Shown here: positions 1 to 53,651 of the stretch, piece after piece
How the letters are laid out: each line of letters starts with the position of its first letter
How positions within the stretch are numbered: position 1 is the stretch's first letter
Assembly: GCA_004123355.1 (NCBI GenBank)
Contig: SCHM01000002.1
Coordinates: 3,348,001 to 3,412,000, forward strand
DNA length: 64,000 nt
Direction of reading: 5' to 3'
Source: Amphirosellinia nigrospora
Taxonomy: Eukaryota; Ascomycota; Sordariomycetes; Xylariales; Xylariaceae
Translations under genes and position numbers: made by a program
The notes under the pieces: generated by a model
The model's input: the letters and a program-made list of their open reading frames with translations, nothing else
What the model was told of the DNA's origin: nothing
Database searches by the model: none

Positions 1-324
1 TTCCAATGCATTGATCAATTGACAGGAGTGAAGTAGGGACCTAGGTACCACTACTTGTAATCAAATTAAGGATGTTCTAATCCTGTGGGCCGGTACCTGT
101 CCAATGGCCAATCACGCTGGCCCTGGATTCTACATTTGGCATTTCCTGATCTATCATGACAGACATGAATGACTGGCGACGGCTTTAGAAATGAAGCACT
201 GAGTGGCCTATATATATTTAACATGTTAAATTATCCGTAGTAACGGTATGCTCCATGACAAGAAACATCCTTCCCTGAATTTCCCCCGTATCGGTCGCCA
301 GCTCTATTCCCTAATATAGTTCTA
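1..324. other. Intergenic, left edge
   Basis: No coding signal was found. The stretch holds two GGTACC palindromes (about 46-51 and 93-98), a motif scattered through the intergenic DNA of this window. It lies downstream (3') of the minus-strand hydrolase relic. Confidence 0.5.
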
Positions 325-1257
325 TCACGACTTGCTTTCAACCGATCCAAGCTCCTTTAGCCCGGCCAATATCTCACACGCCTGTCTCCATGAGTTATCT
401 CCCTCGTAAAGTCGGCTTCTCAGGTAGGCCAGCGACATCCTCTGGACGAAACCAAGCATTTGTGGGCTCTCGTCCTGGGTTTCCGCCGCATCCCATCCGC
501 TTATGCCACCAAAGCCGTGGCGGCCTCCCTTCACCCGCAGCAAGTCCTTAGGACCCGAGCCGAGCGTGTACGCGTCCCAATGCCAATCGGCGCCACGCAC
601 GGTGAGATGTGGGCCGACGTCATCCTCGCCGCCGATGACGAGGGTGGGCGCATGCATCGTGCTGAAGTCGACGTCGTAGAAGGGAAGCAGCTTGCGTCCG
701 TTCTCCGACATGTCCGCGCCGCCATTCCCAGGCCGCCGAAGAGAATGCCAGCTTTGATGCGTTGGTCGAACGGGCCGAACACGGCCCCATCACGTGGGTC
801 TGTGTTTTTCGCGCCGAGAAGGAGACTCATCGTCAGAGTGCCAAAGGAATGGCCGACACCCGCAATCTTGCTTTTGTCGAGGCGCCCCTTCAGGCCGGGT
901 ACAGCTGTCTCGACGACATCATCGAGATGGTCCAGAATCTGGATCATGTCTTCCGGCCGTGACTTCCAATACATTTCGTCGCCATGCGGGGGACTCGGTA
1001 GATCCAACGTTCGAGAGGATAGATGGGTGGGCTGAATCACCACGAAGCCATGCTTGGCCCAAAATTCAGCGAGAGGGGCATAGCCCTCGAGGGACGATAG
1101 CCAGTCCATCGCCAATGGCAGGTGCTGTCACACGAAGTTGCAACTCGGTAGGACGGCCTGGGCTGGGTACGACAACGGGCGCGAAGGAAATAACGGGAGT
1201 GGAAGAATGGACTGGGAACTTGGCAGCGGCGCCGAGGAGAACGTGTTCGGTGGCCAT
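325..1257 (-). pseudogene. Chlorophyllase-like alpha/beta-hydrolase, broken
   Basis: This is an alpha/beta-hydrolase of the chlorophyllase / PAF-acetylhydrolase-like type. The frame starts at the ATG at 1257 with a typical N-terminal stretch (ends near LQLRVTAPAIGD). It resumes in another frame with EGYAPLAEFWAKHGFVVIQP, carries the nucleophile elbow GHSFG (about 843-857), then changes frame once more near 710. The last part supplies the acid-residue region (GGEDD, about 615-630) and the catalytic His (GGRHGFGG, about 505-525) and ends at 325. Between GDGL and LSSLEGYAPL about a dozen residues are missing, namely the strand and HG loop that form the oxyanion hole in relatives. The second frame change has the sense of one missing base, as elsewhere in this window, but the lost loop is a true gap. 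The product would be inactive as read. The family is fairly sure; the substrate is unknown. Confidence 0.7.
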
Positions 1258-2234
1258 CTTGACAGCGTGGTAGGCGTAGATTGAGTGATAGAATAACGAT
1301 GAGGGAATGGCGCCTTAGAGCATGATATGGGATATAAATGGATAATACTGAGAGGCCATGTAGTGCCCTTATATATTCGTGAAGACGTCCTTTGAGTCTC
1401 ATCTCAGTGCGCTTCGTCCTCATCATGGCGGCAACAAGGTCACAAGTAGTGGAGTCACGGACTTAAGCAGACGTGATATTTTCCGGTTCTTTAGAATTCT
1501 GCCTCACACCTTTGCGCGCAATACACGTATGCCGCCATGATACGGGCTGCGCTACCTCCATCACCTCCCAAGTTGAATACGCGTATCCGAAAAGCTTCCA
1601 GCACGTACCTTAAGTAGGTACGTAGTCTAAATACATACCTAGTATTCAAAGTCTACGGGGTAGGCCCACTTAGTTACTTAGCTCGGACTCTTGAACACAC
1701 TTGAATGCGCTAGTTATCGCCTAACTCCACCGGCTATCACGATGGCGGATGACTTAAGTATGCTAATACAATGATGATGCCAAGGAAAATAAAATCCATG
1801 TCACTCCTACGCGTGCGTGGAAAAAGACAATGAGGAATCGATGGTTCGGGGATTTCACATCGATGCAATTAGGATAGGGTTAGTTCGAAGGGATAGAGCT
1901 GTATTTGCAATATAGGCACTTATTACATAAGTCTCGAGTTATATCGTACCATCATTGCTTCCATCATGCCATTATGTATATGCGTTACCGCCGAGTAGAA
2001 CTCACGCTATTCATACTCTACGGGTATTCATGGTATATATATAAACCCACCTCCCTTTTCTCCTCCGTCATGTTGGAATCGGGGCTGTAATGATTCTCCC
2101 GTGCCCCCAAAATTTTCCATCAGGTCCTCCCAGGGCCATTCTGCAGTATGATGGCTGTACTGGTTATTTGCTGTAGGATCCAGTACTCCTAGAGGACCTA
2201 CTAGGTGGTTTGGGAAAAGCCAGTTTCCGTTAAA
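1258..2234. other. Intergenic, nothing recognised
   Basis: No coding signal was found. AT content rises toward 2000. A palindrome-like TACCTTAAGTAGGTACGTA lies near 1607-1625. The stretch is upstream of the hydrolase relic and downstream of the HMG gene. Confidence 0.5.
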
Positions 2235-3228
2235 CTAGTTATTATAGACGGCTTCATTCCCTTGGGCCATCGGCTCTGGCTGTTGGATCTGCTGTTCCAA
2301 CGGTGACTCGACTCTCTGTCGCTTCACCTGCTTCGTCCTTGACGCCATCTTTTGCTTTCCACGAGCGTTGCCATCCTTGTAGTAGTCCGGATAAGATTTT
2401 CTAAACTCTGCTAAAGGAGTATTCGCCAGCCCGTTCCATGGCCTCTTCTCGTCATCCGACATATTCTTCCACATATCCCTCGTGACGCCCGCTAGTGAAA
2501 AATAATAAAGAGCGATCAGCAAGCTTTACTGAAGTGCTGCTGAAGTCGTGGCATTTCACTTACATATCGTGGTTTCATGCATCATGGGGTTAGCACGGCG
2601 GAGATTCGGGGTTTGCGCCTTTCTGAATCGAATGTACACATTAGGCGGAGGCTTGACTCTATTATATTTAGACTGGAAATCATCCTCAACCCCGTTTTTG
2701 TCATCCTGGTGCATTTGTTGAGGGTGTCGCTGGGGTGACTGGTGTCTGAACCTGAGGTGCGCTGGATGATAGTGGTGGCTGCGGCCGTGGTTGGGGATCT
2801 TGTTGTGCTCCCCGACCGATCCGGGCCTTGCCGCCGCCATTTGCGTGGTTTTGGCGGCATCTATGGCTGCGTTGATCGAAGCAGTCGGAAAGTAGCGTTT
2901 AGTGTCCTCCGGAGAAATCGCTATGCCTTACTTTGGCGATCCTTGACCATAGCATCGATTTTGCCGAGCTTATTTCTAATAACCTCCATCTGCACGAGGC
3001 CCCGCACGTATTTGCCCTTTAACTCCGTGAGCCACTTCTGCCTTCATCTTCGCCGACAGATAAACTCCCTTGGCTGCCACCATTTGGAGGTAACTGGGCT
3101 ACCCCATGACTATCAGCAGGTTTGTAGCCCTCGCCGAGCTGGCCTTCTCCTTGCAGTAGTAGTTGTTGTTCACAACATAAATGATCATTGTTGGGATATT
3201 CGGAAGTCCTAGCATGAAACGCTATCAT
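2235..3228 (-). CDS. MAT-type HMG-box protein A
   Basis: This resembles the MAT1-2-1 class of sequence-specific HMG-box DNA-binding proteins. The first half of the box (VKPPPNVYIRFRKAQTPNL) is followed by a 72-bp intron (2492-2563; donor GTAAGT, acceptor CACTAG). The second half is GVTRDMWKNMSDDEKRPWNG and ends in a basic tail (KQVKRQR, a likely nuclear signal). The intron splits a serine codon after its first base (T^CG), the position conserved in ascomycete MAT HMG boxes. Upstream lies a long region with KYVRGLVQMEVIRNKLGKID and a Pro/Gln/His-rich linker. Reading it continuously needs two frame changes (near 3030 and 2930), each like one missing base. The true start is uncertain; the ATG at 3228 is the first plausible one. 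No APN2 or SLA2 lies nearby, so this is not an ordinary MAT locus. Confidence 0.6.
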
Positions 3229-9499: not shown

Positions 9500-12400
9500 T
9501 ATTCTAACGTGTTTAGTAGCCATCTTCTCGCTCTGTTAACCGACCAGATCGGGGGAGTAGGCAAAGCTCTCGGAATAGTACTGACGGCTACTTCACTCCA
9601 CTTTCTTCGGCGTCTGGGTCCGTTATCGAACGCTGTACGGTTCCTCGTACCCAGTTCAACTTCAGCTTCTCGCCTGATACTGCTCTGGCGACCGAAAGGC
9701 CTTCACCTAGTAAAGCAACATACAACATATCGGCCACGTCAACTTCTACTTCTCTATCCCGTCGCTACCCCTCACTCCATCTGATTCGACTTCTGGTCAT
9801 GATTCCAGCCCTGAAAATGCCGATGGAGGCCGAGATGTTACTAGTGCTTTAGATGCCCAACTCAAAGAGTTGCGTTTCTCATCCACAGATCAGTATAGAT
9901 ATGACTAGTGTGGCAGATGCTATACAAGCAGTAGTAGCAGGAAGAGACAGCCGTTCTAGTCCTCTGGATCCAACGTCGTCGCCACCACCACAGGACTAGG
10001 CCCTCATCGAAGATTCTCAAGACCGCGAGATCGGTTTGAAAAACATGACATCAAGGAAGCCCCGCCACATGATCGTTTTAACCTTCCAGCAGTTCAAAAT
10101 GCCCTGCGAACTACGACGGATTTGATGAATGAATGGCCGATGTGCTAAAGCAGTGTGGTGCATAATGAACCTGACTCAGTCATGAAACGGCTTCACCGCC
10201 AAGCAAAGAACCTAGCCGAATTCAAGTGTCTATCTACACGAATTGTTGCTTGTCGGGGACTCGGGCGCCGGTGAGATCTTTATTACTTATAATAGGTTGG
10301 TGACATGTTGACTCCCTGTTCATAGGAAAAAGCAGCCTGCTTAATTCCCTACTTGATTATCGGGATCTGCAAATCGGTGAGTTGCTTATGTGAACGTGTG
10401 GGTTATAACTTATTAATAAACCATAGAGCAACAGCGGAGCGGCTTGTACGTGCGTAGTTACGGAATTTCACTATCATGAGGACGAAAAATTGGCCATTAT
10501 AGTGGAAAGATTCTCTGAAACTGAACTTGTATTTCAACCGAAGTCTCTTCGAGACACCGACATTTTCACTTGAAAAGAGACTCACTGGAGCCACACGAGT
10601 TTGCTGACTCTGAAAGCGAGCCAAGCTGGCTAGCGACACTTTTCAAGCTCTATCCGTGGTCTCTTTGTCGAAAGACACAAATGATTGAGAATACAGAATC
10701 GAAAGCTCTATCAACGCTGAGGTCATGGGGCAGTGTTTGATCAGTCCATGATCCGCGCGAATACACCGGGTTGAGCCCTACCCGATGCTCTATTTTGTTG
10801 ACAGAACTTACTTCAGACCTGCCATCATCTGCTACCACTATCTGGCGTGGATTAAGAAGATTAAGAACAAGATTCTAATCGTTCTGACACACGGCAATTG
10901 ACGTTATAGGGTCTATTTGAATGCACATATCCTGAGCAAAGGGCTCATCTTAGTTGACCTACCAGGTATATCCCTCACTAATATGCCATCACATTGTTCA
11001 CACTGACGCAGCTACCGCTAGTTTGCGTGATATGAATTTCGCACGTCGGAATATAACTGAACGGTATTTACTCAAATGCGATGAAATATTTGCCGTGGCT
11101 ATCGAAGGCCGAGCCACAACAGATGAGGGCGTCCAAACCGTTATCGAATTGGCGAAGAAAGCGAGATTGTCAAACGTTGGAATTATTTGCACCAGGTCTG
11201 ATGTAAGTATTCTTAAGCATACAAACACCATCAATTACTTATGTATGTACAGGAAATTAAACCCACAGAAGCTCTGAGGGACTGGAAAGGGAGAAAACTT
11301 TCCGAGGAAATTCAACGAAGGATCGAAGTTATTAATCAGAATGATTCCGAGGTCAAATGCTTGGATGAGGAAATATCAACCTTCGACGAAATTGAAGAGG
11401 ATGACCTGTCAAACGAGGAGAAGGATGAACGCAATCTATTACAACGTAAACTCAGATTGATAAGGTATATGTCACCCTCAAAATAGCGTGTGAAGTTCAC
11501 TCTAATCACCTCACTATAGAAACCGACGGAATGAAAACAAATTTGAGTAAGCCGACAGGAATCTTCAGTACAGAACTCACTAATAGAAATAGTCTACAAA
11601 AGCTTCTGGTCACAACTCGCAATCAAGCCGTCGAAAAGAAACTCGTCCGGCTTTATAGACACGAGGTTTCAGAAGGCTTGCTCAAAGTGTTCTGCGCCAG
11701 TAATACAATATACTGGGACCACCGCGACGCATCTAGAGACAAATCAATGCCTTACTTAAGGCTCAGTGGGATTATATCAATCCGTGAGCATTGCTTAACG
11801 ATGGTTTCGGAGAGTCAGTACGTGGCGGTGACGAATTACATGCGAAACGATATCCGAGTCCTTCTTGGAGAATTGGATCTCTGGGTGCGGTCAGGGCAGG
11901 GATCTTTGAGTGCGGAAAAGAAAGAAAAGATCCGGGGTGCTCTAGACGTTGTAGAGAGGAGACTGTACCTGGTTTGGAACCCCGAGTAATTTATCGGACC
12001 AACGATGCAATCTAATATTTGTTTAGGGGCTATGCGGACGTACATCAGCACTAAATTGTGTAGGGAATTTGTATAAGAATGAATTTAAGACGAAGATATA
12101 CCAACTACAGGGTATGTATCACCTCTTCGCCATGTTAAGCTGGTCTAAACAGGCCTAGGGAGGAACATAGATATATGGAATGCAACCGCGAAAAGTGCGA
12201 GCGCCGACTGGAGCTGTGTAGGTAAGAGCGCTACTGGACTCTAGAGACTGTTCATCTAACTATGCTCACATAGTGGCATCATCGTAAGTCGTCCATCAAA
12301 ATACTCTGAAAGTTTCCTGACGAGTCAAGAAACGTACTCTGCGTTTTGCCGCAATTACGGCACCCACCACACTGCGGCTGTCGGTCCACGGAATTGGAAT

Positions 12401-13204
12401 CAGGAGATAATCGAAAAAATGGCACAAGACATGAGCGGTCCTTGGAATGAAGTGGAAATGAACTTGGACAAACAGGGCGAAGATATCGTTGAGTCGATTG
12501 AGGACCTCTTTGGCTGGGTAAGCCAATTTCTAGGTAAGTTGGGACACACCCTTGGAGAAACGTCCTAGCTGATCAATCTGTAGATACTGAATTGGCCGAG
12601 TCCCCTGACACGGTGTTTTCCCTCGCATCCACACTTCTGCCCATGAAATCTGTTCTAGAAGCGGACATTGAAGAGATTTTGAAAGATCTCCGAGATGATC
12701 TTCGGTGAGCAAAGTTGTGTTTTAATTTGAACGATTGGCTAACAACCTTTCCTAGAACGCTTCGAACAGACGCTATGTCGAGTATTCGTACGTCTTTCGT
12801 CGGTAAAGCCATGGAAAATGCCTACACAAATGCAAGGTTGGAGAGTGGTAAGCTTAGTATACTTGCCATGGCTATTATGTGTATCCTGCTCACCATTAGT
12901 AGGTCAAGGTAGCGATGCCCGTAGGAAGACTATCATAAACGCTACAGTCAAGCAGAGCGAACTTTTTGCAGATTTATTGAAAGACTTCAAAAGCTTCAAC
13001 GGCCACGCAGACAACGCGCAGGAGCGCTTCCGAGGGATCGTCGGCTCCCATTTTGATGCTCTCAAAGATACGCTTCAAATTGTTCGGAGTGATAATGTTG
13101 CTCTGGAGAGCGAAAGGGATCCCCAATTTCGTCGACGGGTTGAATCCAGATTGGAAACCACAAGAAAGGAGATGGAGAAAGTAGAAAGCACTCTAACGAC
13201 TTGA
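9500..13204 (+). pseudogene. Dynamin-like nuclear GTPase (SLIP-GC-like), decayed
   Basis: This is a large P-loop GTPase of the fungal nuclear-GTPase / dynamin-like group (tail of DUF7605 type). The P-loop is split by an intron: VGDSGAG / KSSLLNSLLDY, with intron 10271-10325. A switch-I-like block (SNSGAACTCVVTEF) follows, then G3 ILVDLPG (about 10950), G4 ICTRSD (about 11185-11205), then long helical tail segments: KVFCASNTIYWDHRD (11690), NYMRNDIRVLLGELDLWVRS, FRGIVGSHFDALKDTLQIV. It ends at 13204. Several short introns fit well (10967-11020, 11203-11252, about 11466-11519). The N-terminal third and the part around 10580-10900 change frame repeatedly and meet stops, more than a few single-base errors would explain. 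The C-terminal half is well preserved. The start is approximate. It is either a degenerating gene or one badly misread. Confidence 0.65.
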
Positions 13205-15648: not shown

Positions 15649-16400
15649 GGAAGTGCAACCTGGTTTCAATGGCTACGTATTAATCACTCAGCAAAGAATT
15701 GGCAACTTTAGATCATTGACTTGCTGTCACAAGGGCTCAGATAGAGGGTTTGGAATGGATTCAGATTGAGTAATAAGCAACTATGATGCCAAAGGGGCCA
15801 TATAGATCTAAGTTTCTTATTCCCTCGAAGGGAGGATTCGTGCCCTTTTATGCTTAGAATTCTCCCTTTTTTCCCTACAGCTTCGCGGACCTCTACGGGA
15901 CCGAAAACTAGAGACCTGTGTAGCCGGAGACTGAATGTCCCGGTGTTCGAGTTCAGCTTCGGTATCTGCTTGAGACTCGCAATAACCTCGTACGACTGCT
16001 TCAGCCTCGTAGGGTAGTATCTAGCGAACTCCGGGTGGCAGTCCGTGTGGCACTGTATTGCACACTTAGCCAGATCCGGGTGACACTTGCACAGTTGCAG
16101 GTAATGAAAACGATACTTTGGGAGTCTCAATCGTACAGAAACTTATATTGACTTGAAAGTTGTGATACTGAGTGACTACATCTGTGCTGTTGAGAGCAGC
16201 TCTTCATGCCTACTTTAAACTGGTAATGAGTGTTACGAACCAGCATTGCAGGAACTCCGCAGGCGGGTTGGCAGGCCCTAGGAATGAGAAGCTGTGGATT
16301 CAGCTTCGTATCACGGAGGTATGGATAGTAAAGATCGAAGTAAAAGATAACATAAAATGTTGTCCAGCAAGTTTAAGCTGAATAAAACTAGTTATTATTT
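15649..16400. other. Intergenic
   Basis: No gene was recognised between the P450 end and the AT-only block. The open frame at 15708-16130 (minus) is Cys/His-containing but fits no family I know, so it is not called. Confidence 0.4.
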
Positions 16401-16633
16401 CTAAAAATAATTAAAGAAAGATTTTATAATATTTGTAAAAAAATAATAAATAATAAATAATAAAATAAATAAAATAATAAATAATAAATAATAAATAATA
16501 AATAATAAATATAATAATAATAATAAATAATAAATAATAATAATAATAAATAATAAAAAAAAATAAAAAAAAAAATAAAAATAATAATAATAATAAATAA
16601 ATAATAAATAATAAATAATAAATAATAATAATA

Positions 16634-16669
<36 letters not shown>

Positions 16670-16855
16670 TAAATAATAAATAATAAATAATAAATAATAA
16701 ATAATAAATAATAATATAATATAAATAATAAATAATAAATAATAAAAAAATAATAATAATAAAATAAATAATAAATAATAAATAATAAATAATAAATAAT
16801 AAATAATAAATAATAATAATAAATAATAAATAATAATAATAAATAAGCTTTTTAT
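16401..16855. repeat. (TAA)n / (TAAATAA)n low-complexity block
   Basis: About 455 bp consist almost only of A and T, built from TAA and TAAATAA units (plus-strand view) with short A-runs near 16555-16575. No G or C occurs over most of the block. Any open frame through it is an artefact that reads as Tyr/Leu/Ile. It ends abruptly at AAGCTTTTTATTATACACGCG. LINEs in fungi and other eukaryotes can end in TAA repeats, but no reverse transcriptase lies on either side here. Confidence 0.95.
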
Positions 16856-18885
16856 TATACACGCGAGGTAAAATAGCTATTGTTAGTTTTTAGCGCGCCT
16901 TTGGCGGCTCTATTAAAGGATTAGCTAGTAGGCCTAGGGTGTTATGGCAAAGGGTAGAAAGAGGGGAGTGGCTTAAGTAAAAGCGGCATCGTTCAGAGCA
17001 GGAGGAAAGCATGCCCTGTATAGGCTCGACCGTTCTATGTCTTTTAATACGGTATATTATTAGGGTCGACGAGTCGATGGCGAAACGGAGGCCCAGCGGC
17101 TATGAGGAAAGGCGAGACCGCCGCACCGCTACGATAAGTTAGCAGACGCCTTCGTACCGAGTTATTAATATTGTAATGTAACTGAAACTTCATATATAGT
17201 TCTTAACAGGTCAGAGCCGTTAATTTTCTGATTATTAATATAAAAGTTTTGTCCAAAATATAGGTATAAATGTCAGAATTTATACGAAGTGTTTCCGGTA
17301 TAAGTTATCGTGATTGCACAACGAAGAAAACCGCAATCGATGTAGCAGAAACTGCATCTCTAGAATGTATGTGGCCATGGGCCCACGCCCATTAACCCCT
17401 GCTCCCGGTGTTATTATGTAGCGTTCCGGGACAATTAAGAACTCCACAGTACTTTTTATTCTTCTATAAATCCTCGCGCCCTTAACAACAACTTCCCACC
17501 ATTATTCGTTCTCTGAAACTAACTATCACCATAAGCAACTAACATTCTGTTTGTGTTCATAATCCCTCACTACTATTTTGATCTGTCACGAACCTTGCAG
17601 AGGTAGGGTGCAAACATCTGTTGTTGCACAGAGGACCAGTGAAGTCATCTCCGTGGGCTCTACGTGACTATATGGCTATATACGGGGGAGTCTCTTTGTC
17701 TTCCTCTTGATCCCTGTTCTCCTGATCACCTCAGAGATGAGAGCTCCATGCTATGGAAATGGATTAGGTTGATGAGACACTCTGCATTAAAATAACGTAA
17801 TCCTACTTCTCGCAATACCGATTTTACTATCAGGCCAGCTAGTGTAATAACTAGCGTAAATTTCGGTTTAGAAGACAAATCACTACTTGGCGTCGAGCAG
17901 CTATATTCTCTCACGATCCTCACGACAGGGGAGTACGCCAAATTTATTTAGCACATCAAAGCCCTAGTTAGAGACGGTACATATAGAGGCACTGCGAGTT
18001 ACCCTCATGAAAGATACTTCACGTTTGTTGAGATATGTTGAAACTTTAGGTGTATTATGGTTTTATGAGCTTTGGCTATAGAAAGCGGTCGTAAATTTCA
18101 TAGCGAGCTTGATTTTCTCACTGCTGTACACATGGCTACGTTTCATAATTTCCCTTTCGACACATCTTCACTGAGTAGTCGAGGTTTGTCATCTCCACCG
18201 CTCAAGTAAATCCGCTGTGGGCATGTGTTTCTTGCATTTGTACTGGCCTACCACTCCCCGAAGACAGCTTTCTCGGCGACGTCGTAATTCCTTCGCCCAA
18301 TTCTGGGGGCACCTGACCACACAAGTGGTACATATATTCTCAAGAAATCAAGCGAGTTTATATCTACATCTCTACGCCTGGATATAGATCATAGCCTCTT
18401 ACTCCATCTCTAAAAGTAAACACAAGAAGCCTGGTAGAGACGTACACACGTAACTAAAATCCTAAGGCTGTGTGGTTCACTAATAATATCTATCACCAAG
18501 CCCTGATAGATAGATAGCAGAAGCTATTCACCGCAGACGGGGCCCAGTTGACCCACAGCGAAATCGAAGCCACAAAACCACAACACTGTTCATAAATAAC
18601 TTCTCTCACTTGCTTTATTCCCACCCCTCCTTCTTCTCATCTACATCTTTTTCTATGCTCTCATCCTCTGGCATAAGAAACGTACAACCGCCACTGGAGC
18701 TAGCTGCAATCACTCTTCGCTCTTTACGATTGATTGCCTATAGTCGATCTTTAGCCGCTCTCGTCAAAATTATTCTTCTACTGCCGGCACTGCGAAGGAC
18801 AAAGTAGCCTTCTTTGCGACTAATGTTCACGAGACAATATCTTCCACTCTTACTGGTCTGATTCTCGTGTCATCCACAACTGGCG
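16856..18885. other. Intergenic with a possible repeat fragment
   Basis: The first 300 bp (16856-17160) are GC-richer and sharply different from the AT block beside them, with an open stretch but no family pattern. They could be the remaining end of a mobile element. The rest to 18885 is ordinary mixed sequence. A CT-rich region around 18600-18700 may be the promoter side of HMG gene B. Confidence 0.35.
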
Positions 18886-20669
18886 ATGTCGGCTGTTGTT
18901 GGTGATCGTTACGACGCCATGATGGTGCTCTGGGCGCGGTTATCGACCCAAGTCAATGGTTCAATTACAACCATTACATTAACCGCGGCAGAGTTTGACA
19001 GTCTGCACGACGATGGAGAAGCCCTCTTTTTGTATAGTTCTATGTAAGTCTCTTCATTTTTGTTCTTGAAGTCCCAATGATTCAACACCACTTTACTCTC
19101 CGACTTGCTTTCCATCGCGAGTTAACCGCATCCCTGCGCATCGCCATTTATAGCTTTGCTACTATTTCTTTATCAGTGGTTTGTCCACGAAGGCGACTCG
19201 CACATATGAAGCCCCTCATCACTGTTTAGTGTATTTGTCCATTCTGCCAGAAGCCTAGTTACTCATAGCATATGCGGATTCTAAAGCGATAACTACACGT
19301 CCTCGTCTATGTTGCTTTTTTATTTCCCGATCACCACTAACCGGAAAATAATAGGGCTCTCATGAATAAAGTAACCGAGTTTGTTGCCGACACTTCGAAC
19401 CCCAATGTGGTCTTGCTAGGGAATCCCGAAGAAATGCAGCACACAACGGGTTCAGTCATCACACGTTTTCCGGGAAGTAGGCTACGTATGCTTTGGCGTA
19501 CCTTTGACAGCCGGGTTGGACCATCCAATTTGGCTATGCCGCACAACAACACCGTCGGCAGAATAAGCACGGCGAACGGCTATAACAATCCGGGAGCCAT
19601 GAACTTTCTCAATCATATATCAATCAAGAAGCCCAACGTTCTTCCGATTTCCGCATGGCTGTCCACACACCCGCCCAAGTATCTTCATCACCACTAAAAG
19701 ACAATTATTCGGAGGCCGTTCCCTCTTCATCCCGGAAGAGAAAAGCCCCAGATCATGCTCAACAGAGTAACGCCAGTACGGGCTAGAGTCTCATTGGCGC
19801 TCTAAGTGGGCAAGCTGTAGGATCCAACTCAGATTATGAAGAAGCGGGCAATAAAGACACGGTGCCAAACCCAAAGAAGCCGAAATCTAACAATCCAAAG
19901 CCTATGAACTCGTACCTTCTATTCCGGCAGGATTATACCAGACGCGAGAGATCCCAGCATCAAAGGGTAGTGTGTACGTGAGAACTTCCGAGAAGGTACT
20001 TCAGCATAATACTAATTAAATATATTTTCAGCCAGCGAGACGTCCCAAATATGGAAATACATGTCTGAAGAGCAAAAGGAGCCCTGGAGGCAACAGGCTC
20101 GTGACCTTGCAACGAAGCAGAAGGAAATGTGTCACGATAGCAACCCCAGCGCGGCTAAGGATCAAGCGCCGCCAGCACCCACGGCGGTTCAAGCACCACG
20201 ACGGCAACAGACTCCAGCACATAACCATCCAACTTCTAGTCCACCAATAGTGCATCAGACCGAAAATCCGGATTCTTTTACTTTACAGCCTAACCAGACT
20301 CATCGCGAGGATGTCCCTCAGTTCACTGCCGCTCATTCATTTTCATCCCAGGAATTCCAGACATATCAAGCCCTGCTCCCGGAGGCCTCTTACGATCCTT
20401 ACGTGGACCTGCAGAAACAAGAGGATGTATCTAAACCCCATATTGAGCATGATGAGGCCAACCAGCCGCAGAATGAGCAATTCATCCGAGGTTTGGATGA
20501 TCTATACTTCCCAACCTTCCCAAACTCACCTAATCAATACGGTGAGCATAACGAAGCTCCTTGGCTGCAGCATGATGGGCCTGCCCAGGGCCAAAACTCG
20601 CAGGATAAAGTGAATTTGTCGGATAATCATCTTGATGACATGGATGCTTCTCGGGAGCCCAGCCGATGA
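18886..20669 (+). CDS. MAT-type HMG-box protein B
   Basis: This is a second MAT1-2-1-like HMG-box gene. Exon 1 (18886-19043) starts MSAVVGDRYDAMMVLWARL. Intron 19044-19354 joins to NKVTEFVADTSNPNVVLLGN, similar in style to the N-terminal region of MAT1-2-1. The HMG box is NNPKPMNSYLLFRQDYTRRE, then intron 19974-20031 (58 bp, GTACGT...CAG), then SETSQIWKYMSEEQKEPWRQ. The intron splits a serine codon after base one (T^CC), exactly as in gene A. A basic patch (SSRKRKAP) precedes the box. A long Gln/Pro/Asp-rich tail, possibly activating, runs to 20669. Problems as read: one frame change between about 19520 and 19590 (sense of one missing base) and one in-frame TAG near 19787. The TAG could sit in an unrecognised intron (GTATCT near 19670 to CTAG near 19789). 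Confidence 0.65.
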
Positions 20670-31610: not shown

Positions 31611-34353
31611 CTAGGTGCTGTCATCAACGGGCCTGTCGGTGGTCCCTCTACGCTCATTCCATTTTCTTTTACCGACTCTTGTCTCATAGTGTGATACCAT
31701 CGACTTGATATCCACACCAACGTTCTCAGCCGTCTTATGACGGTAAGAATCCACTTTCGAAAGTTAGGGTCTGTCTGGCCAAGGATATGGGAGAGTAAAC
31801 TTACAAGCTCGTTGCATGAAGATAGTCCGGCCTGCGAAAGGCCTACCATTGAGCCAGGCCAGGCGGAAGCCGAGGTCGTTGACTTTAATTTCCTTTAAAC
31901 GTTGACTATTTCTCATCCTCGGTATGGCGACTTCGCCTTCACCATTCGCCATGGGGACTTTCACCATGACACGGTCTCTAGTTCGATTGGTCCTCGAGCG
32001 TCCCGTGCGACCGCCATCGACTTCCACATCATCATCCTCCTCATCAGCCAAATCGTCTTCAAAGAAACGGCTACCAGTCGCACTGGGTGGAGGATCCTGC
32101 ATTTCGCGAGGGAAGTAGCTTCTTGGGAAGACTGCTGACCGCTTGCGAAACGAATCGGGAATCTCTTTCGTATCGACAGTGTCTAATATGACGCGCACAC
32201 GTAGGCGATTACCCCGCCTGCTATCGTCAACAAGTATAAACTTCCGCTTCTTGGATTCTGGGAGGTCAGGAAAGAGTCCCTCTGGCGTCAGGTCTTCCTC
32301 GTCCTCTTGGCTCTTGCGTTTAGCGGCAATCGGTCCTCGGTGAGAACTACCAAGACCCTCATGTATTTGGGATACAGAGGATCCTGAGGCGGCGTGACTG
32401 GGATACTGCTGAGGATACCCACTAAAGACATGAGCTGGCCGGGTCTCTTCTCCAGATCGGCCAGGTGCCTGATGATGGTGCTGGTGGGATTCATCCAAAT
32501 ACTCTCCGTCCCCTGTAAGAGGAATGGGAATCAGCATAACCTTCTTTCAGTTTCAATGGGGTAAGGTGATGGGGTTTAGACATTCCGAGAATTAATGCAA
32601 GCAAGCGCGGTGAAGATGAGAGGGGCTCGTAATACAAGACTGCGATGATATGTGGATGAGATGATATGTGCGCGAAGTGTGTTTGTGCAGCGGAATGCAG
32701 AACGATGCCATACAGCTTTCGGCTCCAGACGGTGACAAACGCCCCAGCAAACCAAGGCAACTAGTTATTGTACAGAAATGGTGCCAGTTTTCCATATGCT
32801 CCTCCCTACGCCGGCGGCCTTTGAAGCCGAATATAAACATAAGAAGCATCCATCCCAAACAAAAGCCAAGCAGGTTATACCATATAAATAACAAGAGGTA
32901 TCGCAACAACGACTGTAACAGCAACGCATCAATCACATCTGGTACATACCGACTTCGTCCCCTCCACCCGGCGCATTTCCGTCATGGGCATGATGATGAT
33001 GCATCTGTGAACTCATGCTTCCCAGCCCAGGCTTTCCTAAGGGCGCTGCGGAACCAGGCCCGATAGCGCCCGGAGTTGGCATGCCTGCAGGGCCCCCGGG
33101 ACCAGGTATATGTGTCGCTTGCACCGTCTTGCGGTTGTTCATCTTAGCCATCCGACGTACGCGGCGACTTCGCAACCTAGGATCCTGATTGCTGTTCCGC
33201 CAGCTGTCTACAGCTCGCTGAATAAGACCCCTCTTGCCTCGGAGACAAGGGTTCAGCTGAGCCAGGGCCCACCCCACCGTATTGCATTCAGTCTCATACT
33301 GAAGTCGGTTGCCCCGATACTGTTCTTTCGGGCAGCACGCTCGAGGATAAACACAATTCTCTGTTCTAAAATCGGAGCTCAGCTCTTCCGTATTCACCGA
33401 TTCCACGTCGCATCGTATAGTATACTCCATTTTGACCCTGTCACGCGAGTACTCGAAGGCAATCCATTGAACCCCGTTATTATCCTGTCTCACAACGAGT
33501 GGTGTCGTGGCTGGGATGGGACCGGGCGCAGCATTATTGTTAATACCGGGAGTAGTAGATCCGGTGGGTGTCGACAGTGATGCGCCGTTTTGATTAGACT
33601 GTGGTGTTCCTAACGGGCCCGAGCCAGGCCGCTGTAATTGCGGTGTCATTTGAGGCTCTAGTTTCGTGTGTCTTGGGCTACCGGTCATCCCTGCCTGGCC
33701 ATGCTGGTTGGCGTGCTGGGGTAACTGGTGTTGTGGACCGGTCTGAGACAAATCATATTTGGCTGCGACGTCATGGTTTGATGAGGTTGCTGCGCATGTT
33801 GTTGATAAGGAGACTGCGCCTGCGACTGCATCGACGAATACTGCTGTTGCTGCGCTCCATAGTATATAGATTGATGTTGTAGTTGAGATGGTGGCTGCCC
33901 GTAGATGCTTCGGTGTTCATGAGTTGAGGGTGACGGTACCGAAGCCGGAGAGTTCGACTGGGGCGTATGGTAAATCGGGGGATATGGTCGGGGCACCATC
34001 ATGTCCGGTGTGTCTATTAAAGTGTGAGCTCACGGAGTTCTGGGGATTCTGGAAGCTGTCGAAGTAACGCGACGCGTCTAATACTCACCAGCCGATGTGT
34101 ATCCGCTAGTGGTGCCGGCGGCACTATACGCGCTCTGATGGGCGTAGTACGGGAGGTCTTGGCCGTGTTGAGCGCTGGTGGAATGGCTTGATGCTTGGTA
34201 TGGCTGTATAGAATGCGACGAATAGGCCGATGCATGGGACTGCGCCGGGGGTGCCTGGTGGGGTTGCTGATGGACTATACTGGAGGGTCTTGTGTGTTGC
34301 TGAAGATGTTGCGTTGTTGAGCCACTGTGGGGATGATGCTGCGCAAAGGTCAT
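31611..34353 (-). CDS. Q/H-rich DUF8032-domain protein, probable nuclear regulator
   Basis: This is a conserved fungal protein of unknown function, about 726 aa. Exons: 34353-34089, 34013-32950, 32512-31805, 31753-31611; introns of 75, 437 and 51 bp, all with good GT/AG sites and matching phase. Residues 1-190 are Gln/His/Ser/Pro-rich. The conserved domain (about 262-380) includes NGVQWIAFEYSRDRVKMEYT, CVYPRACCPKEQYRGNRLQY, RGKRGLIQRAVDSWRNSNQD and the basic RSRRVRRMAKMNNRK. A second related block in exon 3 has DRVMVKVPMANGEGEVAIPR and NDLGFRLAWLNGRPFAGRT, closed in exon 4 by SHYETRVGKRKWNERR. Exon lengths sum to one base short of a multiple of three, matching one frame change near 33752-33772 (before KYDLSQTGPQHQ). 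The DUF number is from memory. The start may instead lie upstream (see 36353-36418). Confidence 0.8.
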
Positions 34354-51783: not shown

Positions 51784-53651
51784 ATGGGAATGCAGTCGTC
51801 CGTAGCCCGCTCAGAGTCCGATGGGGCTGCCGAGCACGGTCGGGTCCGGTATGCGAAACCGTCGGAATGGGCTGCCCAGAAAGACATCATCAAGCGGCTG
51901 TACTTGGACGACAACAAGACCCTTGACGAGGTGAGGCGCATCATGGCGGACGAACACCACTTCCATGCTACGTAAGCCCCATTCTAGTGAACCCCTAATA
52001 TTAGTCATCCGGCTGACGGGCGTATAGGCCAAGTATGGTGAGTCCCTGCATCAAGAAGAGCCCTTGATTGCATTGTAGTGTTCGCACCCTTTTCAACATT
52101 ATGACATCACTCGTAGCCTCTGTGAAGATCTATGAACTGACTCGAAAGGGTAGTATAAGAAGCGTATCAGGGCTTGGCACTTCTCGAAGAAGCTAGAAGA
52201 AGACGATGTTTTGGAAGTACTTCAACAGAAGCTTGAGAGGAAGGCTGCAGGCGAGGCTTCACACAACCTCGTCATTCGCGGGCGTGTGGTGAGGAATCAA
52301 CGCCTCAGACGGTTCCTGGAACGGCGGCCCGAGGTACTCGCCCGACTTCAGGTTCACACGGACTCGGTCCTGTCTATCGGCTCTCCTTCGCCGTCTCATG
52401 GGGCACCTGCCGAAGTGCCCAGAGTACGCGCACTGTCGCCAGAGTCTCGTAGTATGGAGTTGACCTTGTTATCAGGTAAGCAGGGGATAAAATCATGCTG
52501 CATCACCCGCCTCGAGAGTTCAGTCGACAGGCCTGTCTCTCCGAACAAGGATCGCACGAGCCCCTCTTCATCTAAAATCATGCTGACCATGAATTCGCAG
52601 TACGTGACTACATTCGAGAGTGCGCATTTGGGCCCAATGCTTCGTGGGCCTGGACTCAGAATGGCTACACCTCTCGACGACTGGAAATAACGGACTTGAG
52701 AGGGTCAAGAATGGATATGCTTCGGGCCGTTGACGAATTTTACTGCTTGCAAGCTTCTATCGATGATAAAAGGCCACCGAAAGAAATCTTCCAGCTGTTG
52801 AATTCGACGCTGAACTACCTGAATGGCGCCATAAGAGCCGAGTTACCAGACTTCATCTTTCAGATGATAGAAATCCTCCAGCACCCGTGGTCGAACCACC
52901 TTGAGCTGTCACAAATTTTTCGACGACACGTGGTAGAGCTTGGCGTTGCCCACTTGGGTATAAATCACCCGATTTCTATTCTATGGATGAATATGCTTAG
53001 GGCAAATGATGATAATTCCATCAGATTGACGAATAGTGTGTTGGAGGTCTTGCTCGAAGAATTACGGAGGTCCAAAGGCCCACAGGGTCATCTCACCTCG
53101 GTGGCACTCAACTACGTGCTGCGATTTCTAATACATACGCAGGATGCTTTCGTGTCGTGGCAACGATTCAACAAGTGGAATATAAAATATCCCGACTGGG
53201 ATGACCAGTCGAAGTGGTCGGTGTCTGTACGCTCGAGATTGCAGGAATACAAAAATGCCGCGAGCGAACCGGGCCACGATATCAGCGACAGCCGCGTCTT
53301 GACATCACCCGCCATGGAATACCAAAGGCCGGGGGGACGTATGGGGATTTACATTCAAAGTATCTCTTGCCGTACTTGGCAGGGCGGATTGCGGTGCGAA
53401 ATGGGGATGCAGTTCGCGCCGAGGGATGGTTCTTGAAAGCCAAGGTGGCTGCAAAGCAGGTCCCGTTGCCCCATCTGACCGATTATTTCCCCAAGACCTA
53501 CACCAATCTTCATGTCCTCTACGATGCCACAAAACAGGAGGACAAGCTGGCAGCTTTACACGAGGAACTACGCGCCTTCAAGGCCGATTTGCCCACGGGG
53601 ACCAAGTGGCCGGTGGATTTGTTACCTGGAGAATGCCCCGACTGTGTTTAG
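51784..53651 (+). CDS. Clr5-domain protein
   Basis: This is a fungal protein with an N-terminal Clr5 domain, a short helical presumed DNA-binding module named after fission yeast Clr5. Residues about 26-82 read PSEWAAQKDIIKRLYLDDNK ... FHATPSMYKKRIRAWHFSKK. Exons: 51784-51971, a 10-nt micro-exon 52028-52037 (encoding T-PSM), 52154-52475, and 52601-53651. All introns have GT/AG ends and phases agree. The rest, about 440 aa, is helical with TPR-like features: SRRLEITDLRGSRMDMLRAV, LPYLAGRIAVRNGDAVRAEG, FPKTYTNLHVLYDATKQEDK. The start is the ATG at 51784, followed by another Met at 51790. One frame change sits at a run of six G near 53330-53340, equal to one missing base; restored length would be about 523 aa. 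The role is unknown; a nuclear regulator is likely. Confidence 0.8.

Follow-up and report, generated by a model that had tools for sequence, protein, structure and literature searches.

The HMG box of the mating-type gene MAT1-2-1 (mat a-1, FPR1) of the Pezizomycotina carries an established intron across a serine codon (PMC3961304, PMC10745113), and box introns are reported to have been lost in sapinea and D. seriata (PMC8905617). In the Pezizomycotina, MATA_HMG genes have already been described away from the mating-type locus: P. anserina has 12 HMG-box genes, of which five are MATA_HMG and two of these (PaHMG5 and PaHMG8) are non-mating-type (PMC3730723), and CfHMG, a MATA_HMG protein encoded outside the mating-type cluster, affects sexual development and pathogenicity (PMC11278496). 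We found no statement in the literature on the presence or absence of the serine intron in non-MAT MATA_HMG genes, and one may still be published; the accessible text of PMC3730723 brings up introns only with regard to RT-qPCR, and that of PMC2999568 does not mention them.

In the 64-kb stretch of Amphirosellinia nigrospora DNA analyzed here (the window), two genes, A on the minus strand and B on the plus strand, each contain an HMG box interrupted by an intron, as the initial annotation had proposed. As in MAT1-2-1, the intron of both boxes interrupts a serine codon, with splicing predicted from the sequence; in contrast to MAT1-2-1, no MAT flank genes were found in the 64 kb around them, their boxes have diverged, and the frame of gene B is broken as sequenced. 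With a probable MATA_HMG-type box and, within the window, a place outside a mating-type locus, they resemble PaHMG5/FMF-1/Ste11, PaHMG8/Rox1/Rfg1, and CfHMG (PMC3730723, PMC11278496), although CfHMG has 682 aa and one intron (PMC11278496), whereas gene A encodes about 177 aa. A further parallel is provided by arbuscular mycorrhizal fungi (Rhizophagus, Gigaspora), whose MATA-HMG families include several HMG-box genes that, as here, are not linked to an established mating locus; Gigaspora rosea, however, has >100 HMG-box factors (PMC4771724), in contrast to the two divergent boxes in our 64 kb.

The HMG box of gene A (2379 to 2657, minus strand, intron included) is complete and, once spliced, matches the entire Pfam HMG_box profile (1-69 of 69) with 56.3 bits (E 4.3e-15), above the curated cut-off. 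One open spliced model runs from Met 2840 to a stop at 2235 and encodes 177 residues, with (i) a 5' coding exon (2564 to 2840) that carries the N-terminal half of the box, (ii) a single phase 1 intron inside the box (2492 to 2563, score 7.9), and (iii) a 3' coding exon (2235 to 2491) that completes the box and continues through a basic tail to the stop codon. A further weak intron (score 4.4) would lengthen the protein to 205 residues. Gene A had been annotated from 2235 to 3228; the box and the exons from 2840 down to 2235 bear this out, whereas no convincing reading frame was found upstream of Met 2840. At the wedge site, gene A reads Y-I-R-F, which agrees with the rule for sequence-specific boxes of M, I, or V at position 9 and aromatics at -1 and +2 (PMC2999568). 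A PDB sequence search with the gene A box had an SRY/HMGB1 fusion, SOX2, and SOX9 as its top matches (best E 1.6e-10), and no homologue of gene A was confirmed in GTDB genomes.

Gene B had been described as one gene from 18886 to 20669, a reading that the exon frames do not confirm. Its candidate first exon (18886 to 19043, plus strand) is an open frame covering the N-terminal region that ends at a GTAAGT donor at 19044; the candidate first intron has 311 nt (19044 to 19354), with GTAAGT, a CTAAC branch site, and TAG (score 8.0). The candidate second exon (19355 to 19694), without a Pfam match, ends at a TAA at 19695 and is out of frame with the HMG exon (19787 to 19973), which is open only after a TAG at 19784 to 19786 and encodes the N-terminal half of the box. 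Downstream of the phase 1 box intron (19974 to 20031, score 7.8), the last exon (20032 to 20669, within a 217-aa open frame at 20016 to 20669) is open over 212 codons and comprises the remaining HMG box, a Gln/Pro-rich tail, and the stop codon. The N-terminal exons and the HMG exon are in different frames, with both stops in between.

The gene B box itself (19895 to 20123, intron included) is 4 residues shorter than that of gene A between helix 1 and the serine. Its spliced sequence exceeds the curated cut-offs for both HMG_box_2, at 31.2 bits (E 3.5e-7), and HMG_box, at 29.0 bits (E 1.5e-6), and a PDB sequence search with it placed the SRY/HMGB1 fusion, SSRP1, and HBP1 first (best E 1.2e-6). 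The wedge site reads Y-L-L-F, with the aromatics present and a Leu in place of M, I, or V. No homologues of gene B parts were confirmed in IMG/VR, and a megablast of the gene B region against a plasmid collection gave no match.

The two box introns share their position and their phase. That of gene A (2563 to 2492, minus strand) is 72 nt long and reads GTAAGT ... GCTGATC ... CTAG, with a CTGAT branch site and a TAG acceptor, and that of gene B (plus strand) is 58 nt long and reads GTACGT ... TACTAAT ... TTTCAG. Both split a serine codon between its first and second bases (T^CG in A, T^CC in B), seven residues before the helix-2 Trp, at the head of the stretches S-G-V-T-R-D-M-W in gene A and S-S-E-T-S-Q-I-W in gene B. 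These serines fall into one alignment column with those of SOX2, SRY, HBP1, SSRP1, and four provisional fungal reference boxes; among the five PDB boxes, four (SOX2, SRY, HBP1, and SSRP1) have a serine in the column, and HMGB1-B has an Ala. An alternative splice of gene B at 19978 to 20035, which has a weaker donor and passes over the first AG, scored 6.3 compared with 7.8 and would move the intron off the serine into a threonine codon, whereas a third pairing, 19974 to 20035, also scored 7.8, but its 4-nt offset loses the frame.

Introns were rated with simple consensus scores devised for this analysis. A score of at least 7.5 was reached by only 33 of the 35,454 candidate GT..AG pairs of 45-120 nt in the window (plus strand, 13; minus strand, 20), a fraction that describes rarity and is no p-value, as the 7.5 cut-off was chosen after both introns (7.8 and 7.9) had been seen. 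Because equally strong candidates are this rare, the shared position is unlikely to have arisen by chance. Position and phase are those described for MAT1-2-1 boxes, as the initial annotation had pointed out, and from the predicted splicing, there is good support for a homologous intron position that connects the two boxes with one another and with the serine intron published for MAT1-2-1. For the further label of this position as MAT-specific, the literature consulted gave no backing.

Both boxes give a significant profile match over the three-helix region, as expected of the HMG-box superfamily. For placement within it, the fungal reference boxes (mat a-1, Mc, Ste11, and Rox1) are provisional sequences rather than database records, and only a part of mat a-1, the motif PRPPNAYILYRK, is confirmed in print (PMC2335104). 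In pairwise comparisons, the gene A box scored highest with SOX2 (111), Mc (109), SRY (99), and mat a-1 (99), and lower with Rox1 (85), HMGB1-B (73), SSRP1 (72), HBP1 (68), and Ste11 (58). The gene B box scored highest with SSRP1 (96), HBP1 (89), and SRY (87), and lower with mat a-1 (76), SOX2 (76), Rox1 (71), HMGB1-B (68), Ste11 (67), and Mc (57). For each of these pairs of A or B with a reference box, 0 of 500 shuffles were as good. The provisional mat a-1 thus stays below SOX2 for gene A and below SSRP1 for gene B, and the Ste11 and Rox1 scores, obtained with provisional boxes, are not distinctive for either gene. A filamentous Ste11-like box, itself an uncertain sequence, scored 76 with gene B and 40 with gene A.

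A maximum-likelihood tree of 11 boxes, a small sample that includes the four provisional fungal references, has a branch that separates A and B, together with these four MATA boxes, from the rest, with a support of 53/81 and no starred branch. Both genes thus group loosely with the MATA boxes, at a support too low to decide their family. AU tests rejected neither A with MATA (p 0.32) nor A with SOX2/SRY (p 0.18), and likewise neither B with HMGB1/SSRP1 (p 0.31) nor A with B (p 0.37). These results also bear on an assignment to other HMG classes, in which gene B would be HMGB/SSRP1-like and gene A SOX-like, with the common intron being a coincidence or an old general HMG-box intron. Such an assignment would agree with SSRP1 as the best score and HMG_box_2 as the best Pfam model for gene B, with the AU tests, which reject neither grouping, and with the serine common to the SOX2, SRY, HBP1, and SSRP1 boxes. 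It would, however, have to account for introns that cut one and the same codon after the same base, where equally strong candidates are rare; further, the full-length HMG_box match and the wedge residues of gene A fit the sequence-specific class, and SOX-TCF genes are described as apparently animal-restricted (PMC3730723). We consider it distinctly improbable.

The spliced A and B boxes align with each other with a score of 89 (0 of 500 shuffles equally good). At the same time, the two genes differ as strongly as the initial annotation had stated: unspliced tblastn between them found only stretches of 16 and 20 residues (E 0.05 and 0.12), a blastn self-comparison of the window yielded no pairs, which rules out a recent local duplication, and this self-comparison showed no DNA similarity in the flanks of the two genes. 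No third HMG box was found in open-frame and six-frame scans, of which the unspliced scan also missed the box of gene B. With only two boxes in 64 kb and the frame of gene B broken as sequenced, the suggestion that these genes founded a lineage-specific family finds no support.

The surroundings of both genes were surveyed by a six-frame Pfam scan of the whole window (48 unspliced 8-kb pieces, stops as X, E 0.001), which returned only DUF7605, cytochrome P450, HMG_box, and Clr5. HMG_box appeared in 1 of 18 pieces of one batch. When open frames with 85 aa or more were scanned separately (144 of the 173 listed), the same families and a weak EAD9 were returned. The DUF7605 pieces (12260 to 13201, plus strand) have E 7e-24 in one open frame and 4.5e-5 in another, and in the second of these frames lies a sub-threshold match to Effector-associated domain 9 (E 6e-4), a possible hint of a fungal signaling gene. 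The Clr5 domain lies at 51859 to 51972 (plus strand; E 1.3e-13). The 24 kb between 24000 and 48000 gave no Pfam match in the unspliced six-frame scan (E 0.001), although they contain open frames of up to 327 aa; two neighbors among them, at 31767 to 32546 and 32936 to 33916 (both minus strand), share 34% over 32 residues (E 2.8e-4), a similarity that possibly reflects low complexity, exons, or tandem relatives. The window contains no tRNAs and no Rfam families at the gathering score. Its gene content and short introns look like those of a filamentous ascomycete.

APN2, SLA2, and the alpha-box were absent from the unspliced six-frame scan of the 64-kb window, a scan that weak or intron-rich domains could escape. 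The placement of both genes outside a MAT locus thus stands within the window, where neither was found beside APN2 or SLA2, and reaches no farther. A displaced or duplicated MAT1-2-1, left as a relic of an old mating-type duplication and degenerating off the active MAT locus, could explain gene B and perhaps gene A as well. The introns do sit at the published MAT1-2-1 serine position, and MAT genes away from APN2 and SLA2 are documented, as for MAT1-1-1 and MAT1-1-3 of Hymenoscyphus fructigenus, and unlinked MAT loci exist (PMC10569646). A marginal similarity, no more than a lead, links the N-terminal region of gene B to the N-terminus of the provisional N. crassa mat a-1: the alignment extends from W.R.S.Q to LLG, has a single 2-residue gap, and scores 45 (6 of 2000 shuffles equally good), but under looser gaps 28 of 2000 shuffles do as well, and a single provisional sequence underlies it. 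Upstream of gene A, a MAT1-2-1-like N-terminus is unsupported: none of the three frame pieces, taken separately, matches the provisional mat a-1 N-terminus (308 to 1521 of 2000 shuffles equally good), and their comparison with gene B found nothing. The closer scores of the gene B box with SSRP1 and HBP1 than with the provisional mat a-1 and the lack of APN2, SLA2, and alpha-box domains in the unspliced scans of the window also speak against such a relic, which we regard as unlikely. It is quite unlikely, too, that the two are ancient copies of the MAT1-2-1 lineage within 17 kb of each other, both long gone from the MAT locus, with one now a small regulator and the other dying.

The condition of gene B was assessed from the introns that could join its parts. 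Donors between 19360 and 19779, paired with acceptors upstream of 19900, give 45 single introns that keep the frame open, but the best of them scores 2.6, whereas the gene's two good introns reach 7.8 and 8.0, and among the 25 listed, none has a branch site. An intron at 19638 to 19930 (score 3.8) keeps the frame only by deleting the N-terminal half of the box; the gene B models that use it, although favored by the spliced-model search, were taken as a scoring artifact. Further, the terminal branch of gene B in the tree measures 3.42 changes per column, compared with a median of 0.88. Because of the frame break with its stops, the Leu at the wedge position, and this long branch, gene B is most likely decaying or already a pseudogene, as judged from its sequence.

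A possible sign of damage and a possible cause of it were set aside. Counted from the helix-1 Asn to the Trp, the gene B box has 30 residues, whereas gene A and all five PDB boxes have 34; among the provisional sequences, S. pombe Ste11 has 30 and Rox1 has 39, and the short loop was dropped as a sign of damage since Ste11, a working protein, is equally short. RIP as the cause of the damage is unsupported, with composite RIP indices of -0.66 for gene A and -0.63 for gene B. RIP-like DNA does account for 21 of the 126 one-kb stretches across the window, among them the ones over 16-18.5 kb adjoining gene B, and an (AAATAAT)n/(AAT)n repeat of ∼400 bases (16395 to 16860) adjoins this RIP-like DNA, which reaches ∼18.5 kb, just 5' of gene B.

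Two neighboring readings seem to change frame as well. The cytochrome P450 (14500 to 15650, plus strand) matches profile positions 294-347 and 359-438 in two different frames and shows, by eye, an in-frame stop farther upstream; it looks frame-broken or has an unrecognized intron. An esterase/hydrolase-like reading (300 to 1330, minus strand), with GHSFGTL and PTLVIGGEDD visible by eye and a Pfam PAF-AH_p_II match below the cut-off (E 0.016), shifts frame along its length and reflects a broken gene, introns, or sequence error. Because these neighbors also seem to shift frame, the break in gene B could be a sequence error instead of decay, and the region around it may either be decaying as a whole or contain indel errors in the sequence.

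Gene B could then be intact and working, for example as a gene of the Ste11 kind, with a frame break that stems from sequence error or from splicing missed by our simple scoring. The open last exon, the 30-residue spacing shared with the provisional Ste11, and the introns that keep the frame open on paper (the 45 weak ones and the one that costs half the box) would allow for this, and the apparent frame shifts of its neighbors would fit an indel-prone sequence. The low scores of the joining introns, the Leu at the wedge position, and the long terminal branch argue otherwise, and the scores of gene B with the provisional Ste11 (67) and with the uncertain filamentous Ste11-like box (76) do not exceed that with mat a-1 (76). 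An intact gene B is possible, in our view, but doubtful.

Taken together, the explanation that we favor, and to which we give about an even chance of being right, is that A and B are old, strongly diverged genes of the SOX/TCF/MATA_HMG kind, with gene A encoding a DNA-bending regulator, gene B decaying or a pseudogene, and no recognizable MAT locus around them. The likeliest reading of gene A is an ordinary non-MAT MATA_HMG-type regulator, with gene B as a distant, probably decaying relative. This explanation draws on (i) the Pfam matches and the position and strength of the introns, (ii) the Y-I-R-F of gene A and its closer similarity to SOX2, SRY, Mc, and mat a-1 than to HMGB1-B and SSRP1, (iii) the side of the tree shared with the MATA boxes, (iv) the long branch and the frame break of gene B, and (v) the documented non-MAT MATA_HMG regulators. 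Against it count the tree without a starred branch, the AU tests that leave A with SOX2/SRY and B with HMGB1/SSRP1 standing, the best score of gene B with SSRP1 (96, compared with at most 76 for the fungal boxes), the scores of gene A of only 58 with Ste11 and 40 with the uncertain filamentous Ste11-like box, the provisional nature of the fungal references, the Ste11-like length of the gene B loop, and the sequence error that could underlie the frame break.

Under this favored explanation, gene A would most likely be translated into a small nuclear protein, whose L-shaped three-helix box would bind an A/T-rich core and bend the DNA, with the I of Y-I-R-F wedged between base pairs. By analogy with PaHMG5 and CfHMG, it may switch target genes, most plausibly those of sexual or developmental programs. 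Gene B would share the same intron-bearing ancestry, and would differ in its atypical Leu at the wedge position, its long branch, and its lack of an ordinary joined frame.

Descent of A and B from MAT1-2-1 would make them examples of mating-type regulators that escaped the MAT locus and of the fate of such regulators, with the conserved intron as a marker of that descent; two ancient MAT1-2-1 copies, in particular, would represent the fossil of a dispersed mating-type idiomorph or a MAT-derived regulator family starting in an ascomycete. If they are instead ordinary non-MAT MATA_HMG genes, they would add two diverged members, one of them probably dying, to a known ascomycete class.
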